DNA of 27,999 nt from a virus, in IMG/VR virus record IMGVR_UViG_3300009132_000023, positions 1 to 27,999 of that record; one strand, written 5' to 3'. This document shows, piece after piece, positions 3,784-11,825 of this stretch; position 1 is the stretch's first letter, and each line of letters begins with the position of its first letter. Both the position numbers and the translations under genes were made by a program. A model generated the notes under the pieces. That model saw only the letters and a list, made by a program, of their open reading frames with translations. It did not search any database and was not told where the DNA came from.

Positions 3784-3878
3784 AGTAGACCTCCTATTGT
3801 GATTAGGATTGAAAGTGCGCCAATGGCGATGATGTTCATAACGAGCATTACTGCGTTAAGCATTAACAACTTGAGCAT
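3780..3878 (-). CDS. Tiny hydrophobic membrane peptide, 32 aa
   Basis: An AAGGAGG site lies five bases before ATG 3878. The 32 residues are almost all hydrophobic (MLKLLMLNAVMLVMN then IIAIGALSILITIGGLL), enough for one transmembrane helix. It begins inside the 3' end of the SLOG gene (23-base overlap) and its stop overlaps the next start as ATGA. It is one of four short membrane genes in this region. The function is unknown. Confidence 0.6.
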   Translation of the reverse strand: MLKLLMLNAVMLVMNIIAIGALSILITIGGLL

Positions 3879-4365
3879 GTGACCTCCTTATTCTTTCGTC
3901 GCCGCAATAGGTGCAAATCTGGTGACCATTGTCATGTAATTCCTGATAGTCGTGAAAAACGTCATTGAGGAGACGTACACCAGCGCGACAGAACTGCTTG
4001 CTCTCACCGTTACCGTATCGCAAGCGAAGGCGTTTTGCCTCTTTGATCATGTGGGCAGTGCCACGCGAATTGTTGAGCTGGAACGAGATCAGGTAGTCTG
4101 CGTACTCAGCCATTTGCGTGTTACGTTTGTATCCAGCAGATCTGCCGTACTTATTCCAGTGGGCAGGGAAACGAGTCAGTTTAAAACCTGATGATAGTGC
4201 GTACATTTCACCTTGTGCGTCTGCACCACGGGCCATACCAGATACGATTTCGATGTCGCCTTCTTCGCGTATACCATCGAGGAAATAGTCACAGACTGCC
4301 TTAAGGTAGTGGTAATTATCGAAGTTCCTGCTGCCAGCGATAATGACTTTGAAAGAATTGTTCAT
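3856..4365 (-). CDS. DUF2493/SLOG-family nucleotide-sensing protein with zinc-binding tail, 169 aa
   Basis: The N-terminal 115 residues carry the signature of the DUF2493 (YAcAr-type SLOG) family: IIAGSRNF at 8-15, SGMARGADAQG at 42-52, and KYGRSAGYKRNTQM followed by ADYLISF at 72-95, with SRGT at 100-103. SLOG proteins are Rossmann-like and are thought to bind nucleotides or nucleotide-derived signals; phage copies are common but mostly without a proven role. The last 50 residues add CTYC (151-154) and a nearby His163, probably a small metal-binding end. ATG 4365 has a GGAGA site and overlaps the preceding tiny frame as ATGA. Family call firm; function inferred. Confidence 0.85.
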   Translation of the reverse strand: MNNSFKVIIAGSRNFDNYHYLKAVCDYFLDGIREEGDIEIVSGMARGADAQGEMYALSSGFKLTRFPAHWNKYGRSAGYKRNTQMAEYADYLISFQLNNSRGTAHMIKEAKRLRLRYGNGESKQFCRAGVRLLNDVFHDYQELHDNGHQICTYCGDERIRRSHAQVVNA

Positions 4366-4516: not shown

Positions 4517-4835
4517 TGTGTGCCAGCAAAAGGGGGTGTGTGCCACGATGTGTGCCACAATGTGTGCCAGCTAAAATCTCTATTTATTTATTTAAATCAA
4601 AGACTTATAAATGTGTGCCATGTGTGCCAGCTAATTTGAGTTAAAGTTCGTTTAAAACGATGATTAGCGTTTTTCAAAACATCCCTTATGCTTAACTCAG
4701 AAAAAAGCTGACACACATGACACACAAACGGGTTTTTTGCGCGTAAGTTGATGATAGTTAAAGGAAAAAGTGTGTGTCAGGAAGGCCAAAAACTGCTGGT
4801 GTGTGTGCCACCTAAGCTGACACACATGACACACA
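4517..4835. repeat. Array of twelve TGTGTGYCA iterons; candidate origin or control region
   Basis: The nonamer TGTGTGYCA occurs on the plus strand at 4517, 4537, 4549, 4561, 4612, 4621, 4771 and 4802, and on the minus strand at 4709, 4718, 4818 and 4827. Copies at 4537, 4549 and 4561 are spaced by 12 bases. Three pairs (4612/4621, 4709/4718, 4818/4827) are head-to-tail with no gap and all carry the flank GCT, giving three copies of a 21-base element, the last two identical and inverted to the first. AT-rich DNA separates the groups (4571-4611 is about 85 percent AT). The stretch 4452-4860 has no gene. The pattern fits initiator iterons with an unwinding region, or an operator array. Confidence 0.75.
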
Positions 4836-5600: not shown

Positions 5601-6074
5601 ATGAGCGACTTAAAAATTTGCTCGACTTGCCAACGTGAACTACCCCGCGAACTTTTTGAAGCTAAACGAAGGTCGTGCCGCGCATGTCGAACCACGAGCC
5701 AGAGAAAACGAACATCGTCCTCCTACGAGCACTACCTTCGCTATTTGTATTCCAACGCGAAATCCTCTCTGACCAGCGAAACCAAAACCCATCCCCGCGA
5801 TATAGCCTGGGAGCTGGAACCTCATGATTTAATTGCCCTGTGGGAGAAACAGGAAGGCCGTTGCGCGATCAGCGGAGTCTTCCTCACGCATCACAAAGAT
5901 GGCACCGGGAGGTACGATTTCAATGCAAGTATCGACAGGATTAGTCCAGATCTACCTTATACACCCCAGAACGTTCATCTAGTTGCGTACCGAATTAACA
6001 TTATGAAACACACGTTAACCAGCGATATGTTCTATTGGTGGGTAAAAACGATCCACGATTTCTCTTGCGATTAG
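5601..6074 (+). CDS. HNH-type endonuclease, 157 aa
   Basis: The N-terminus has a zinc-binding pair CSTC (7-10) and CRAC (26-29). Residues 86-140 match the phage HNH fold: GRCAISG, then NASIDRISPDLPYTPQNV with IDRI at 111-114, Asn124, Asn133 and Lys136. This subfamily has Asp-Arg where classical HNH enzymes have Asp-His, so the metal site is of the variant type. HNH proteins next to terminase genes often assist cleavage of packaged DNA; others are homing enzymes. Here it starts the rightward operon 257 bases before terminase small subunit. There is no ribosome site before ATG 5601 and the likely promoter lies immediately upstream. Confidence 0.85.
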   Translation: MSDLKICSTCQRELPRELFEAKRRSCRACRTTSQRKRTSSSYEHYLRYLYSNAKSSLTSETKTHPRDIAWELEPHDLIALWEKQEGRCAISGVFLTHHKDGTGRYDFNASIDRISPDLPYTPQNVHLVAYRINIMKHTLTSDMFYWWVKTIHDFSCD

Positions 6075-6101: not shown

Positions 6102-6365
6102 ATGGAAGTAGAATTAATTGCGGTTGACGGTCTGGACGATGCAATCGTCGGTACGACTTTTTGTAATCGTGTGGAAGTCCTTGTTTATGACTACGACAAG
6201 GCCGTCCAGCTTGCTATGCACGGCAATGATATGAGCGAAGCAGACGCTGAGTTGTTGATAGCAGATTTGGCTGTTGCGGATGTGGTCGGTAAGCCACTTT
6301 TTATTCATTTTTACGATAACAACGCTGAATATGACGGACTTAGCGCAAGCGCAACCCTCCACTGA
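6102..6365 (+). CDS. Hypothetical acidic protein, 87 aa
   Basis: A small acidic protein (MEVELIAVDGLDDAIVG at the start) with beta-like segments (NRVEVLVYDYDKAVQLAM, KPLFIHFYDNNAEYDG) and a helical middle (SEADAELLIADLAVADVVG). No family is recognised. There is no clear ribosome site; a candidate promoter sits just upstream. Its last 35 bases overlap the start of terminase small subunit in another frame. Position suggests a packaging or regulatory accessory, which is inference. Confidence 0.7.
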   Translation: MEVELIAVDGLDDAIVGTTFCNRVEVLVYDYDKAVQLAMHGNDMSEADAELLIADLAVADVVGKPLFIHFYDNNAEYDGLSASATLH

Positions 6366-6858
6366 TCTCGTGAGCGAACACACAGAGTTTGAAAGCCTCA
6401 TGCCGTACATGGGCCTGTCTCGCGGATCGCTAACCGTGCAGCAGGAAAAGTTAGTCATGCTTATCGTATCGGGCATGACTGTCGCGGCAGCGGGTCGCGG
6501 TGCAGGCTACGCGTCTTCGTCAACGGCATATACAGCCGCGAAGCTCCCCCAGGTTCAACAAGCTATTGAATATTTCCGGCAGGAGATGCGCGAAGAGGTG
6601 AAGTTCACCACGCAAAACGCGCACATGATGTACATGGAGGCGTACAACTCTTCTGCCAACGCGACTGAGATGAAAAACACGACTGATTCTCTCGTCAAAC
6701 TCCACGGACTGGTCGCACCAGACAACTCGACACAAGTAAATATTCAGGTGAATGGCACCAAGCAGCTTGAGCGGATGACCGATGAGGATTTGTTGAAGAT
6801 TGCGGGGAAGGAAATTGACTACTTGGAACCCAAAAGCGGTGAGAGTGAAGAAAGCTGA
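6331..6858 (+). CDS. terS: Terminase small subunit (DNA recognition), 175 aa
   Basis: Residues 35-90 (LTVQQEKLVMLIVSGMTVAA, then GAGYASSSTAYTAAKL and a helix to about 90) match the helix-turn-helix domain of phage terminase small subunits, which bind the packaging site and form a ring that delivers DNA to the large subunit. The C-terminal part (NIQVNGTKQLERMTDEDLL) is typical of oligomerisation and terL contact tails, and the last residues are acidic. I start at ATG 6331; it has no clear ribosome site and overlaps the previous gene by 35 bases, so coupling is likely. Unusually, terL does not follow directly: four frames including a lipase lie between. Confidence 0.75.
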   Translation: MTDLAQAQPSTDLVSEHTEFESLMPYMGLSRGSLTVQQEKLVMLIVSGMTVAAAGRGAGYASSSTAYTAAKLPQVQQAIEYFRQEMREEVKFTTQNAHMMYMEAYNSSANATEMKNTTDSLVKLHGLVAPDNSTQVNIQVNGTKQLERMTDEDLLKIAGKEIDYLEPKSGESEES

Positions 6859-6940: not shown

Positions 6941-7131
6941 AAAAGTTTGTTATAGCAGCAGTGGTTCTCCTTGCAGGTTGTGGGTCTGTACCCCCAATCG
7001 ATCTACAGTTGGAGCTTGAAGCCTTGGGCGGGTTAGTAAAAGTGAACCCTGCCATCACTATTGGTGATGGGAAGGTCGGCCCGACAGGGGTCGAGGTCAT
7101 TATCGACGAAGAAAAGCTTAATGGTCAGTAG
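6937..7131 (+). CDS. Small lipoprotein, 64 aa
   Basis: The N-terminus is a lipoprotein signal: two Lys, a hydrophobic core (FVIAAVVL) and the lipobox LAGC with the acylated Cys at residue 15. The mature part is about 50 residues, starting CGSVPPID, with acidic and Gly-rich stretches (ITIGDGKVGPTG). Ser/Gly after the Cys predicts outer-membrane sorting in Gram-negative cells. It overlaps the lipase gene by 11 bases. It could be an Rz1-like outer-membrane spanin, a superinfection-exclusion lipoprotein or a lipase partner; it is not proline-rich and no inner-membrane spanin is beside it, so the spanin idea is weak. Confidence 0.75.
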   Translation: MKKFVIAAVVLLAGCGSVPPIDLQLELEALGGLVKVNPAITIGDGKVGPTGVEVIIDEEKLNGQ

Positions 7132-7729
7132 ACACCTACTGTGCGCGAAGCTGTCGGCTCGTGTTTATAAGCACTGGGATGCGCGAACCGCTGGCATCGA
7201 ATCGTTAACCAACGAGGATAAATCGATAATCGCGTTTGCAGGCACTGATGTGCGGCAACCGCAGGATGTGTTGCGGGATCTTAGAATTATTCCGCTCTGG
7301 AGTCCCGACTTGGGACTCTCTCCCGCTGGGTTCTTAAAAGCAGCGAGGCGATTGGGTTACATCGTCTTGGACCACTTGGCTGACAACCGTATGGAGAGCG
7401 TAACTCTCACGGGACATTCGCTCGGAGGTGCTGTTGCGCTAATCACTGCAGCGCTGATTGCGAGGGAGTGCCCTGGTGATAAGAAGGTTCGTGAAGTCGT
7501 GACGTTTGGCGCACCGCGAGTCGGTAGGTTAAGGACGTTGGACTGCCCGATTACTCAGTACCGTTACCAGAATGACATTGTGCCGACAGTCCCGTGGCTC
7601 ATGCCGCGCCCCGGCAAATTAACCCAGATTGGTGACAACAACACTCGTGGCAATTGGATCAGCGACCACGGGATCATGAACTACATCAACGAGCTTCGGA
7701 GGCGGGATCTTGAATCTGTACACGTATAA
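7121..7729 (+). CDS. Class 3 lipase (alpha/beta hydrolase), 202 aa
   Basis: The protein has all the landmarks of lipase class 3: IIAFAGTD at 36-43 (oxyanion region), the nucleophile elbow TGHSLGG with Ser100, FGAPRVG at 129-135, Asp152 in YQNDIVP, and His182 in SDHGIMNY. The catalytic triad Ser-Asp-His is therefore complete. Such enzymes hydrolyse acylglycerols or phospholipids. There is no signal peptide, so it acts in the cytosol unless released at lysis. The start is ATG 7121, inside the end of the lipoprotein gene; the open frame to 7061 is longer but without a site. A role in membrane damage or host lipid turnover is inference. Confidence 0.88.
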   Translation: MVSRHLLCAKLSARVYKHWDARTAGIESLTNEDKSIIAFAGTDVRQPQDVLRDLRIIPLWSPDLGLSPAGFLKAARRLGYIVLDHLADNRMESVTLTGHSLGGAVALITAALIARECPGDKKVREVVTFGAPRVGRLRTLDCPITQYRYQNDIVPTVPWLMPRPGKLTQIGDNNTRGNWISDHGIMNYINELRRRDLESVHV

Positions 7730-8060
7730 GGTTCAGTACGTTCACTCTGTTTACGATGGCGATACCTGCACGCTGGATATTGACCTCGGTCTGAATACGA
7801 TTCGGCGGAAGGAAAAAGTGCGGTTGTATGGCATCGATGCCCCAGAGCTACGCGGCGTCAGTGATGAGGAGAAAGAGCGTGGTAGAGCAGCGCGGGACTG
7901 GTTGTGGGAAAAGTTGGATGAGGCGGAAGAAGTTCTAGTTCGCACACACAAAGACAAAACAGGTAAATACGGGCGGCTGTTGGGGACGCTCTATGCTGAT
8001 GGTAAGAACCTTAACAGCGCTCTGATCGATCAGGGTCTGGCGAAACCATACGGCAAATGA
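7710..8060 (+). CDS. SNase-like (thermonuclease) nuclease, 116 aa, TTG start
   Basis: The staphylococcal nuclease fold is clear: VYDGDT with Asp18, RLYGIDAPE with Arg38, Asp43 and Glu46, and KYGRLLGTLY with Arg89, followed by NLNSALIDQGLAKPY. Arg38, Glu46 and Arg89 correspond to the catalytic Arg, Glu and Arg of the family, and the Asp residues bind calcium. These enzymes cut DNA and RNA. The start must be TTG 7710, because no ATG precedes the first motif and GGAGG lies seven bases upstream. There is no signal peptide. It overlaps the lipase end by 20 bases and terL by ATGA. It may degrade host DNA or process DNA during packaging. Confidence 0.88.
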   Translation: MNLYTYKVQYVHSVYDGDTCTLDIDLGLNTIRRKEKVRLYGIDAPELRGVSDEEKERGRAARDWLWEKLDEAEEVLVRTHKDKTGKYGRLLGTLYADGKNLNSALIDQGLAKPYGK

Positions 8061-9691
8061 AAAAAATTGTCTGCATAAGGTGTAAGAACTCGCATCCTGA
8101 AACGTTGTATGCGGGAGATGATCGCCTTTGTGTTTATTGCAAAGCCGATATTGCAGAGCAGCAACCGTTGCCTGCCCCGGCCCTGCAGGAAGAAGAGAAG
8201 GAACAGACGTTAGAGGAGAAAGCGCGTGCTGAGTTGGCGTTGCGCTTTCTAACACGTAAGCGGTTATTACCCTTTGTTGAACGTTTCAACCCCGATTATT
8301 CAGCGGGTTGGGTTCACAAAGACATTTGTAAACGATTAGAGGAGTTCAGTCGCGATGTCGCTGAAAAAAAGAGTCCTAGACTTATGCTCTTTATGCCGCC
8401 CCGTCATGGTAAAAGCACTTTGGCTTCGGTGGGGTTCCCAGCTTGGCACCTGGGCCGAAATCCAGAGCACGAGTTTATCTCTTGTTCTTACTCGGGTTCG
8501 CTCGCAATGGCATTCAGCCGCAAAGTCCGTGGTCTCCTCCGCGAAGAAGGTTATAAAGCAGCGTTTAAAACCCGTCTTGACCCTCAATCGCAGTCAGCTG
8601 AAGCGTGGCTTACAACGTCTGGCGGAGGTTATGTCGCGGCGGGGGTAGGTGGTGGTATTACGGGTAAAGGCGCACACATATTAGTGATCGATGACCCTGT
8701 CAAAAACAGGGAGGATGCGGAGTCTTCAAATGCGAGAGAAAGTACGTGGGATTGGTACACATCTACTGCGTACACCCGTCTCGCTCCTGGTGGCGGTGTA
8801 CTTGTCATTCTTACTAGGTGGCACGATGATGACCTTGCGGGGAGACTCCTCAAAGCCGCAGCAGATAACGGCGAGCAGTGGGAAGTCGTCAACTACCCCG
8901 CAAGAGCTGAAGTTGACGAAGAGTTCCGCAAAGCAGGCGAAGCGCTTCACCCTGAACGATATGATGCCGAAGCTCTAGCGCGAATCGAGCAAGCGGTTGG
9001 ACCACGCGATTGGTCTGCTCTGTACCAGCAGAACCCTGTTGCCGATGACGGCGAATATTTCACCAGAAGTATGATCCAGTACTTTGATCGAGATGATATT
9101 GATCTTGATCGAATGAAATTTTACTGCGCGTGGGATTTGGCGATTGGTAAAAAGGATCGGAACGACTACACGGTTGGCATCGTTGTCGGTGTTGACGAAT
9201 CAGACTGCATGTTCGTCGTCGATATGGTGCGGGGTCGGTTTGATGGCTTCGAGCTGGTTGAACAGATCCTTGATCTCTACGAGGTCTGGAAGCCAAGCAT
9301 TATAGGAATAGAGAAAGGACATATCGAGATGGCTCTAGGGCCATTCTTGGAGAAGCGCGTTCGTGAGCGAGGGCTCTATGAGGCGTATTTTAAAGACTTA
9401 AAAACTGGGCGGCGGGATAAGGAGGCTCGTGCCCGTGCGATTCAAGGCAGGATGCAGCAGGGCATGGTGTTTGTGCCCCGAGAAGAAGCTTTTACAGGCC
9501 CATTGGTAGCGGAACTATTACGTTTTCCAAATGGTGTTCACGATGATCAGGTCGATGCATTGGCATGGATCGGTTTAATGATGACGGAATTTTCAACGTT
9601 TGTAGAAAAGGTTGAACACATTCCTTCGTGGCGTGACAGATTGCCAGGGCTGATGAAAAGCGAACGAAACAAATCTGCAATGAGCGCATGA
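8057..9691 (+). CDS. terL: Terminase large subunit with N-terminal zinc knuckle, 544 aa
   Basis: This is the packaging motor ATPase and nuclease. The Walker A motif is PPRHGKST (114-121), Walker B is ILVIDDP (about 208-214), and LTRWHDDDLAGR is the coupling motif. The C-terminal nuclease domain has the RNase H-like acidic residues in AWDLA, IGIEKG and DDQVD (from 496). The family resembles Terminase_6. An unusual addition is an N-terminal zinc knuckle with CIRC (6-9) and CVYC (25-28), followed by a Pro/Glu-rich linker to about residue 55. ATG 8057 overlaps the nuclease stop as ATGA. The portal gene follows directly. Confidence 0.95.
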   Translation: MKKIVCIRCKNSHPETLYAGDDRLCVYCKADIAEQQPLPAPALQEEEKEQTLEEKARAELALRFLTRKRLLPFVERFNPDYSAGWVHKDICKRLEEFSRDVAEKKSPRLMLFMPPRHGKSTLASVGFPAWHLGRNPEHEFISCSYSGSLAMAFSRKVRGLLREEGYKAAFKTRLDPQSQSAEAWLTTSGGGYVAAGVGGGITGKGAHILVIDDPVKNREDAESSNARESTWDWYTSTAYTRLAPGGGVLVILTRWHDDDLAGRLLKAAADNGEQWEVVNYPARAEVDEEFRKAGEALHPERYDAEALARIEQAVGPRDWSALYQQNPVADDGEYFTRSMIQYFDRDDIDLDRMKFYCAWDLAIGKKDRNDYTVGIVVGVDESDCMFVVDMVRGRFDGFELVEQILDLYEVWKPSIIGIEKGHIEMALGPFLEKRVRERGLYEAYFKDLKTGRRDKEARARAIQGRMQQGMVFVPREEAFTGPLVAELLRFPNGVHDDQVDALAWIGLMMTEFSTFVEKVEHIPSWRDRLPGLMKSERNKSAMSA

Positions 9692-9692
9692 C

Positions 9693-11825
9693 ATGAAACA
9701 GCAAAAAATTAGCCCTGATAAAGAAGAAGAAATCACACGTACCCAATGGATGCGCTATGAGCGAGCCAGGGATAACGGTCATTTAGATTATGTCTACATG
9801 GCTCAGAGGTGTGATGACTATTACCAAGGTGAACAATGGGATGATGACGATGAAGCTGCGCTGGAAGCGCAAGGTCGTCCAGCACTCACGATCAATACGA
9901 TTCTTCCTACTGTAAACACCATATTAGGTGAGCAGTCTAACCGCAGAGCGGATATTCAGTTCAAACCGCGCCGTGGTGGTAGCCAGGATGTCGCGAATAC
10001 CCTGACAAAACTTTACATGCAGATCAGCGATAACAATAAGCTGGACTGGGTGGAGCAACAGGTGTTCAGCGACGGTCTGATTATGGACGGTCGCGGGTAC
10101 TTTGACGTGAGGATGGACTTCAGTGACCACGTTGAAGGCGAGGTTCGCATCACCGCAAAAGACCCGCTGGACATTTTGATTGATCCAGATGCTAAAGATG
10201 CAGACCCGAAGACGTGGAATGAGGTCTTTGAGACTAAATGGATGACCCTCGACGAGATCGAGGAGGTTTACGGTAAGAAAAAGTCGGAAAGGCTCCTTTT
10301 TATAGCCGAAAACGGCATGAGTTACGGAGCGGATTCAGTTGAGTACCACGAATCGCGGTACGGAGACACGGAAAATGGCGATGATCACTTCGGCGCGGGG
10401 GTTCCTGGCGATGATGAATACCGAAATGTGAAGTCATTACGGGTTGTAGAGCGTCAACATAAGAAATTATCGCGATGTTCCTTCTTTGTAGACCCCGAAA
10501 CGGGTGATCAGCGGCAATGTCCAGACGTTTGGAACGAGCGAAAGTGCAAAAAGTTCGCAAAAACGCATGGTTTGGAGTTAATTAGCAAAGTTATTCGCAA
10601 AGTTCGTTGGACGGTGACCTGTGATCAGGTGGTTTTGCACGATGATTGGTCGCCTTACAAAGATTTTACGATTGTTCCTTTCTTTTGTTACTTCCGACGC
10701 GGTAGACCCTTCGGGGTTATCCGAAATTTGCTCTCTCCACAAGAACAATTGAACAAAATTGCCTCGCAAGAGCTGCATATCGTCAATACAACAGCTAATT
10801 CAGGCTGGATGGTAGAGAGCGGCTCGCTGGTTGGCATGAGTCCAGACGATTTGGAGGAGCATGGAGCCGAAACGGGCCTCGTTTTGGAATATGCACGCGG
10901 CACTACGCCCCCTGTGAAGATAACCGCGAACCAGATACCGACTGGTTTGGATCGAATCGCGATGAAAGCAGCTGCGAACATTCAATCCATATCCGGTATT
11001 AATGAATCGATGCTGGGTACTGATAGTGCTGAAGTGTCAGGAGTCGCGATCCAGGCCAAACAGAACCGTGGCGCGGTCATGATTCAGGTGCCGCTCGATA
11101 ACTTACGCAAAGCAAGGCAGTACTTAGCTGAGAAGGTGCTTGATTTGGTCCAGACCTTCTATAACGAAACGCGGATTATTCAGGTCACAAACGAGGAAGA
11201 TCCACTGAAGCCTCGTGAAGAAATGATTATTAATGGAGTTACGCCTGAAGGTGAGATTATCAATAATCTTACGATAGGTGAGTATGACGTTATTGTTTCA
11301 ACTGCACCTGCCAGAGATAGCTTCGACGAGGTTCAGTTTGCCGAAGCATTGAGCTTGAGGCAGGTCGGTGTAGCTGTACCGGATGACGCGATTGTTGAAT
11401 ACAGCCATTTGGCGAAGAAAGGCGAACTTGCCAAACGTATTCGAGAGATGACAGGTCAGGAACCACCTACCGACGAGCAGTTACAGGCTATGGAAGCTCA
11501 ACAGCAGGTTGCAATGATGCAGCTGCAGCTTGAGATCGCGAAGCTCCAGGCTGAAGTTGAAAAGATTCAGTCCGAAGCGACTCTTAACATGGCTAAAGCT
11601 CAAGGTGCGGCGGAAGTTGATCCGCAAATGCGCGTTGCGGAACTGCAGGCCAAGATCCAAATGAATCAAGATCAGCTAGACCTCCGCAGGGAGTTATCTG
11701 CTGCTACAAATGATATTCGTCAGAGCCAATCTGAGACTAGTGCTGCGACGAAGATTGCAACGACTGCTATGCAGCAGGCACGACAGACCGCTTTACCCCA
11801 ACCCGAAACCCAACCCCAGGAATAG
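9693..11825 (+). CDS. Portal protein (P22-type), 710 aa
   Basis: The portal forms the ring at the head vertex through which DNA enters and leaves. The sequence has the P22-type portal pattern: an N-terminal region with ARDNGHLDYVYMAQRC, QGRPALTINTILPTVNTILG around residues 60-80, then DPLDILIDPDAK near 155-165, the wing and stem region, and the clip region near SPQEQLNKIASQELH. The last 120 residues are a Gln/Ala-rich coiled coil (QQQVAMMQLQLEIAKLQAEV), like the barrel helices of P22 portal. It starts one base after terL ends; the ribosome site is weak, so coupling is likely. Confidence 0.9.
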   Translation: MKQQKISPDKEEEITRTQWMRYERARDNGHLDYVYMAQRCDDYYQGEQWDDDDEAALEAQGRPALTINTILPTVNTILGEQSNRRADIQFKPRRGGSQDVANTLTKLYMQISDNNKLDWVEQQVFSDGLIMDGRGYFDVRMDFSDHVEGEVRITAKDPLDILIDPDAKDADPKTWNEVFETKWMTLDEIEEVYGKKKSERLLFIAENGMSYGADSVEYHESRYGDTENGDDHFGAGVPGDDEYRNVKSLRVVERQHKKLSRCSFFVDPETGDQRQCPDVWNERKCKKFAKTHGLELISKVIRKVRWTVTCDQVVLHDDWSPYKDFTIVPFFCYFRRGRPFGVIRNLLSPQEQLNKIASQELHIVNTTANSGWMVESGSLVGMSPDDLEEHGAETGLVLEYARGTTPPVKITANQIPTGLDRIAMKAAANIQSISGINESMLGTDSAEVSGVAIQAKQNRGAVMIQVPLDNLRKARQYLAEKVLDLVQTFYNETRIIQVTNEEDPLKPREEMIINGVTPEGEIINNLTIGEYDVIVSTAPARDSFDEVQFAEALSLRQVGVAVPDDAIVEYSHLAKKGELAKRIREMTGQEPPTDEQLQAMEAQQQVAMMQLQLEIAKLQAEVEKIQSEATLNMAKAQGAAEVDPQMRVAELQAKIQMNQDQLDLRRELSAATNDIRQSQSETSAATKIATTAMQQARQTALPQPETQPQE

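Follow-up and report, generated by a model that had tools for sequence, protein, structure and literature searches.

A repeat array with a fixed layout and changing words, the probable replication origin of a family of mostly marine phages

The window analysed here is the complete IMG/VR record IMGVR_UViG_3300009132_000023, 27,999 bases long, and it is a fragment of a tailed-phage genome, as seen from its recognisable terminase subunits, portal, major head protein and endolysin. It contains an array of short repeats (iterons) of the word TGTGTGYCA, which is a candidate replication origin. The 12 exact matches to this word in the window all fall within 4517-4835, while 0.40 would be expected in the window and the maximum over 100 dinucleotide shuffles was 2. 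Eight are on the plus strand (starts at 4517, 4537, 4549, 4561, 4612, 4621, 4771 and 4802) and four on the minus strand (4709, 4718, 4818 and 4827). The initial annotation, made from the sequence of the window, had reported these numbers and had noticed no copy elsewhere; the whole-window count agreed exactly, as did the 12-base spacing 4537/4549/4561 and the three gapless pairs (4612/4621, 4709/4718 and 4818/4827). Its 21-base double unit, TGTGTGYCATGTGTGYCAGCT, occurs three times only if Y is permitted. The copies at 4706-4726 and 4815-4835 are identical and belong to a 22-nt exact repeat, whereas a C replaces the T in the copy at 4612-4632. The array is mixed at base 7 of the nonamer: all six copies on the left carry C there, and five of the six on the right carry T.

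The array begins on the plus strand with iteron 1 (TGTGTGCCA, 4517-4525), iteron 2 (4537-4545), iteron 3 (4549-4557) and iteron 4 (4561-4569). They stand at about -96, -76, -65 and -53 in the common layout described below, in which the gapless plus pair of iterons 5 and 6 (4612-4629) takes positions zero and +9. A first AT-rich spacer, S1 (4570-4611), precedes this central pair; AT content was 82% over the 40 bases measured there (4569-4608), and S1 includes an exact plus-strand match to the consensus of integration host factor (IHF), AATCAAAGACTTA, at 4595-4607. The second spacer, S2 (4630-4708), lies between head-to-head pairs and is the proposed unwinding element. It is 69% AT compared with 50% in the flanks, in agreement with the AT-rich DNA that had been described between the groups of sites. 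Beyond S2 are the gapless inverted pair of iterons 7 and 8 (TGTGTGTCA, minus strand, 4709-4726), an IHF-like sequence with one mismatch (TATCATCAACTTA, minus strand, 4744-4756), iteron 9 (TGTGTGTCA, plus strand, 4771-4779, layout position about +154), iteron 10 (TGTGTGCCA, plus strand, 4802-4810), which is extra compared with most arrays, and the gapless inverted pair of iterons 11 and 12 (minus strand, 4818-4835). Several relatives have an exact TATCAATGACTTA at the place corresponding to the IHF-like sequence.

Megablast of the window against phage records gave no match. Relatives were retrieved with the large terminase subunit (8057-9691, plus strand) as query, and longer contigs were added afterwards. 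In about 30 distinct related contigs an array was seen with the terminase genes on one side and the early/replication operon on the other; in the terminase relatives the repeat cluster lies 2.1-3.6 kb upstream of terL. At least 15 different words were found among the arrays, most of them TGT plus four variable bases, including TGTGTGTCA, TGTGTGACG, TGTGTGACA, TGTGTAGCA, TGTGTACCA, TGTGTTCCA, TGTGTGCAG, TGTGTACAC, TTGTGCACC, CTGTGCACG and TTTGGTCCA. Over 32 arrays, plus sites stand at -96, -76, -65, -53, 0, +9 and +154 and minus sites at about +97, +106, often +115, +180 and +200. The standard deviation of a site position is 0-3 bp, with individual sites present in 20 to all 32 of the arrays. 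When conservation in related phages was checked, as the initial annotation had suggested, the answer was divided: the word differs between relatives and the geometry is nearly fixed. The holders of the array are a family of mostly marine bacterial viruses that have kept the positions of the sites and rewritten their letters.

The layout could be detected without any fixed word. Our detector used geometry only (a word found again 8-10 bp on, and an inverse pair 60-130 bp on) and also counted additional copies of the word. It found the array in most contigs covering the relevant place. Where 4.3 kb or more of sequence was available upstream at a terminase locus, it succeeded in 13 of 17 cases; in three of the remaining loci (L025, L037 and L062) the array was seen by word count or by eye. 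Calls in L166/L187 and L214 were rejected as false positives in low-complexity stretches with irregular spacing. The template score reached at most 5 of 11 in 736 kb of first-order Markov-shuffled DNA, compared with 4-11 (median 9) in real arrays. No more than two copies of the word occurred outside the array in the nine relatives checked. Mean AT content of the spacer was 73% in 34 arrays, compared with 53% in the flanks. An inverted repeat inside the spacer, sought across the arrays, was not generally conserved. A search of GTDB genomes returned only three contigs of metagenome-assembled genomes, one of them (L304) with an array. L304, binned as Ca. Neomarinimicrobiota, has an array of TGGTTCCA together with a 47%-identical helicase and is probably a phage contig.

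A cultured relative has a comparable array. The helicase of Pseudomonas phage KPP25 is 33% identical, and all 12 copies of TGTYACGA in the 27.5 kb examined fall in one 677-bp intergenic region. Counted from the gapless plus pair of KPP25 (0, +8), the remaining sites are at -77, +180, +268 and +347 on the plus strand and at -46, +125, +134, +200, +209 and +289 on the minus strand. This layout largely agrees with the marine one if a spacer about 28 bp longer is allowed for, with extra sites present; the strict layout detector gave the KPP25 array no score.

In the 56.7-kb relative G001, late and early genes diverge near the array, and the DNA polymerase gene spans the record ends. The array heads an early operon leading to PolA, an 832-aa DUF5906/VapE-like protein, a PD-(D/E)XK nuclease and an SNF2-type helicase, and further on to Pam3 gp34-like, CI-like helix-turn-helix (HTH) and AlpA-like proteins, with an integrase on the opposite strand. 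Among relatives with contigs that reach that far, most have the DUF5906 gene where it was expected. In one of them, G051 (30890-33387), the helicase gene is in pieces with stop codons, while the copies of relatives are intact. Four contigs have a second cluster of inverted and direct repeats at least about 3 kb beyond the gp34-like gene: L110 (15236-15518, AATTGCT), L162 (14373-14636, GGGTAAC), L175 (18736-19060, CTAAAAC) and L218 (1823-2148, TATCTAA). These are perhaps attP arm sites.

The place of the array near terS and its distance from terL would suit a packaging site of the pac or cosB kind, bound by the small terminase subunit TerS and aided by IHF as in lambda cosB, and IHF-like sites do occur in the arrays: an exact IHF consensus is found in 18 of 34 arrays only, against 0.03 expected per array. 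However, at the divergent junction the array lies on the side of the early genes. Three words are in use among G001, G003, G014 and G021, whose TerS proteins are 85-89% identical, and the TerS recognition helix is almost identical in G003 and G014 despite their different words. A terminase recognition array, one of the functions offered by the initial annotation, keeps its proximity to terS in its favour, and we regard it as very unlikely.

The same annotation had also offered a repressor or antirepressor array. An operator for the CI-like HTH protein would be in keeping with complete relatives that encode this protein, an AlpA-like protein and an integrase. However, phages with different words hardly differ in the HTH recognition segment SQGAISHYLN, the word does not cluster at the repressor gene, and spacings of 9, 11-12 and 20 bp between sites that occur in both orientations are a poor fit to one dimer site. 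We consider an operator array highly improbable. The CI-like repressor (G001 9151-9777 and relatives) is itself peculiar in that its HTH is near-constant and the remainder hypervariable, the reverse of the usual pattern.

Inverted copies had been thought able to form RNA hairpins if leftward transcription crosses the array, and in the leader of the early transcript such hairpins might be the working element. The leftward RNA does fold more stably than shuffled sequence (z -6.7), and its central double units form a 21-bp stem. Nevertheless, pairing would not require the direct copies to share the word, as they do, the spacer within the stem pairs little above shuffles (6.6 vs 5.8), and Rfam gave only sub-threshold matches to plant miRNAs. 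The folding was judged a by-product of inverted iterons, and a hairpin function is hardly credible.

The candidate reader of the iterons is the DUF5906 protein, a predicted primase-helicase. The full-length model of a relative's protein matched the helicase region of NrS-1 (E 1.5e-23), poxvirus D5/E5 and SaPI5 PriRep1. A separate model of its C-terminal domain (pLDDT 89.5, pTM 0.83) shows the winged-helix order of helices and two strands; the fold matches of this domain were weak only and include NrS-1 and winged-helix proteins such as ORC/Cdc6. Among close relatives the helicase core is near-invariant, and the wing, residues 780-815, is the most variable stretch. With the domain aligned by iteron, two distant clades (G001; G046 and G054) combine base T7 with Ala798, base C7 is mostly accompanied by Pro798, and an iteron ending CA by Arg800.

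Single-column scans also gave chance columns in SNF2 and polA that scored as high as the helicase columns, and because of this a held-out test was run. The rules for residues 798 and 800 were fixed before the arrays from two further scans were read. The residue 800 rule was correct in all three held-out lineages (L383, Arg/CA; L365, Ser/AG; L369, Thr/AG), and the control columns SNF2 77 and polA 526 failed on them. Arg800 was present in 15 of 17 CA-ending genomes vs 1 of 7 others (Fisher p 0.0013, pooling training and held-out genomes and without phylogenetic correction). In a windowed partial Mantel analysis of seven proteins, the best windows were in the helicase, with the wing among the top four of 1319, a result short of significance by permutation. 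The covariation is partial, and the DUF5906 primase-helicase is regarded as the likely reader, through its C-terminal winged helix.

The array could also be an origin at which another phage protein, a small unannotated DNA-binding protein or the 226-aa neighbour, reads the iterons and recruits the helicase. The covariation of the helicase wing is incomplete and several early genes have no known function, both of which suit such a reader. The sequence of the 226-aa protein does not track the word: in G014 and G021, which share the word TGTGTAGCA, it is only 19% identical, whereas in G001 (TGTGTGTCA) and G003 (TGTGTGACG) it is 78% identical though the words differ. The 226-aa neighbour is therefore disfavoured, and we hold a separate reader to be unlikely.

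Among the functions offered for the array, an origin is favoured by the comparative evidence of conserved layout, location, AT-rich spacer and frequent exact IHF consensus. As in iteron origins, the array consists of regularly spaced identical short repeats, essentially unique in the genome, with an AT-rich element adjoining them. We consider it probable that the array is a replication origin and that its iterons are read by the winged helix of the SF3-type DUF5906 primase-helicase of the phage.

Several observations weigh against this conclusion. The window record stops short of the early replication genes, including that of the candidate initiator, so the DUF5906 protein of this phage is inferred from relatives; where the gene is seen it lies about 8 kb from the array, unlike in many iteron replicons. 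Many arrays are partial, a few mix words internally, and in L305, L306 and phiA008 a related helicase is present and no array was found. The residue 798 rule held in L383, failed in L369 and made no prediction for L365. G001 and G023 have the CA ending without Arg800, and KPP25 has Arg800 despite a CG ending. In the Mantel analysis a maximum at least as high as the observed one came up in 43 of 200 permutations, which is not significant, and the wing did not supply the top window. Finally, the check by GC skew put forward in the initial annotation gave no turn at the array. Cumulative skew ran in a single direction in all five relatives analysed (G001, G012, G014, G016 and G019), though their early and late genes are on opposite strands. 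Such monotonic skew neither supports nor opposes the site and may reflect one-directional replication.

In the common layout, an AT-rich spacer of 80 bp has four plus iterons and the gapless plus pair to one side and, facing them, an inverted gapless pair or triplet to the other. Beyond the inverted group come a single plus site, more minus sites and often an IHF-like site. In the proposed mechanism, the primase-helicase, with its NrS-1- and D5-like SF3/DUF5906 core, would read each 9-mer by the C-terminal winged helix. The head-to-head groups would seat two helicase rings flanking the AT-rich DNA, and the spacer would open between them for replication to start there. The arrangement of the groups and the AT-rich spacer suggest this loading and opening by two rings if SaPI Rep and Cch2 (PMC7581432), and iteron origins at large, are taken as the model.

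Of the genes around the array, the early-side neighbour (3856-4365, minus strand) matches phrog_289 ('GTP-binding domain'); it is outside the conserved core and was unmatched in ten relatives. On the other side, an HNH / endonuclease VII-like gene (5601-6074, plus strand) adjoins the array and is present in most relatives, with 31-58% identity to the G001 copy. This gene brings to mind Odn, the origin-cutting nuclease of ICP1. The small terminase subunit (6274-6858, plus strand, start uncertain) is the first packaging gene on the late side, and lipase/esterase-like and nuclease-like genes (7061-8060) lie between the two terminase genes.

SaPI Rep and SCCmec Cch2 are SF3-type initiator helicases with a C-terminal origin-binding domain and an iteron origin immediately downstream of the helicase gene (PMC7581432). 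Like them, the phage system has a ring helicase of related fold, short repeats, proposed double-hexamer loading and a C-terminal DNA-binding domain, the helicase and this domain being found in predicted structures of a relative's protein with weak C-terminal matches. Unlike them, it has its array about 8 kb upstream of the helicase gene, a primase predicted on the helicase chain, about 12 sites of fixed geometry and at least 15 words. In the Vibrio cholerae PLE system, the DNA-binding domain of the initiator RepA and the iterons co-vary, and only matched pairs work (PMC8263062, PMC7145576). The likeness lies in initiator and iterons varying together. RepA, however, has a RepA_N fold and is not a helicase, its iterons are semi-palindromic and about 30 bp long, and the PLE change was a domain exchange between two replicon groups with restructuring of the iterons (PMC8263062, PMC7145576). 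Lambdoid origins likewise have iterons adjoining an AT-rich tract, but these lie within the O gene, in 4-6 copies on one side of the tract, and the initiator is unrelated (PMC7466680). The phage array is intergenic, no O-like initiator gene was found among the genes tested near it, and it is not of the lambdoid O type. The NrS-1 primase-polymerase has the closest solved helicase core to the DUF5906 protein, but the 8-nt sequence that it recognises is found at only two places in the NrS-1 genome, with no array (PMC7102993). Iteron origins are known, as are matched initiator/iteron variants (PLE, PMC8263062), and fused primase-helicases with C-terminal origin-binding domains had been proposed already (PMC5862659). 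In the literature searched, no array of this kind was found described. What appears to be new is how far the word has changed while the frame stayed fixed, and that this change apparently ran through a small number of wing residues and not through domain exchange.

The word could be rewritten on a constant geometry because the wing of the reader would mutate together with the iterons. A possible but still doubtful extension is that, on this frozen geometry, point changes in the iterons and the reader wing have rewritten the word at least 15 times, each word acting as a private code. The drivers would perhaps be origin-targeting nucleases, superinfecting relatives or parasites that titrate the initiator, and the array of the window, with C7 on the left and mostly T7 on the right, would have been caught between two words.

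Geometry alone is enough to locate such probable origins, with no need of the word, across many phages of which most are uncultured, and KPP25, being cultured, opens the origin to testing. The natural series of matched words and reader wings is material from which a recognition code for winged-helix initiators could be derived. Ectopic copies of the origin block lambda (PMC4488673), and in PLEs an origin-directed nuclease selects new iterons (PMC8263062); because of these precedents, the origin word may decide which phages of the family interfere with one another.
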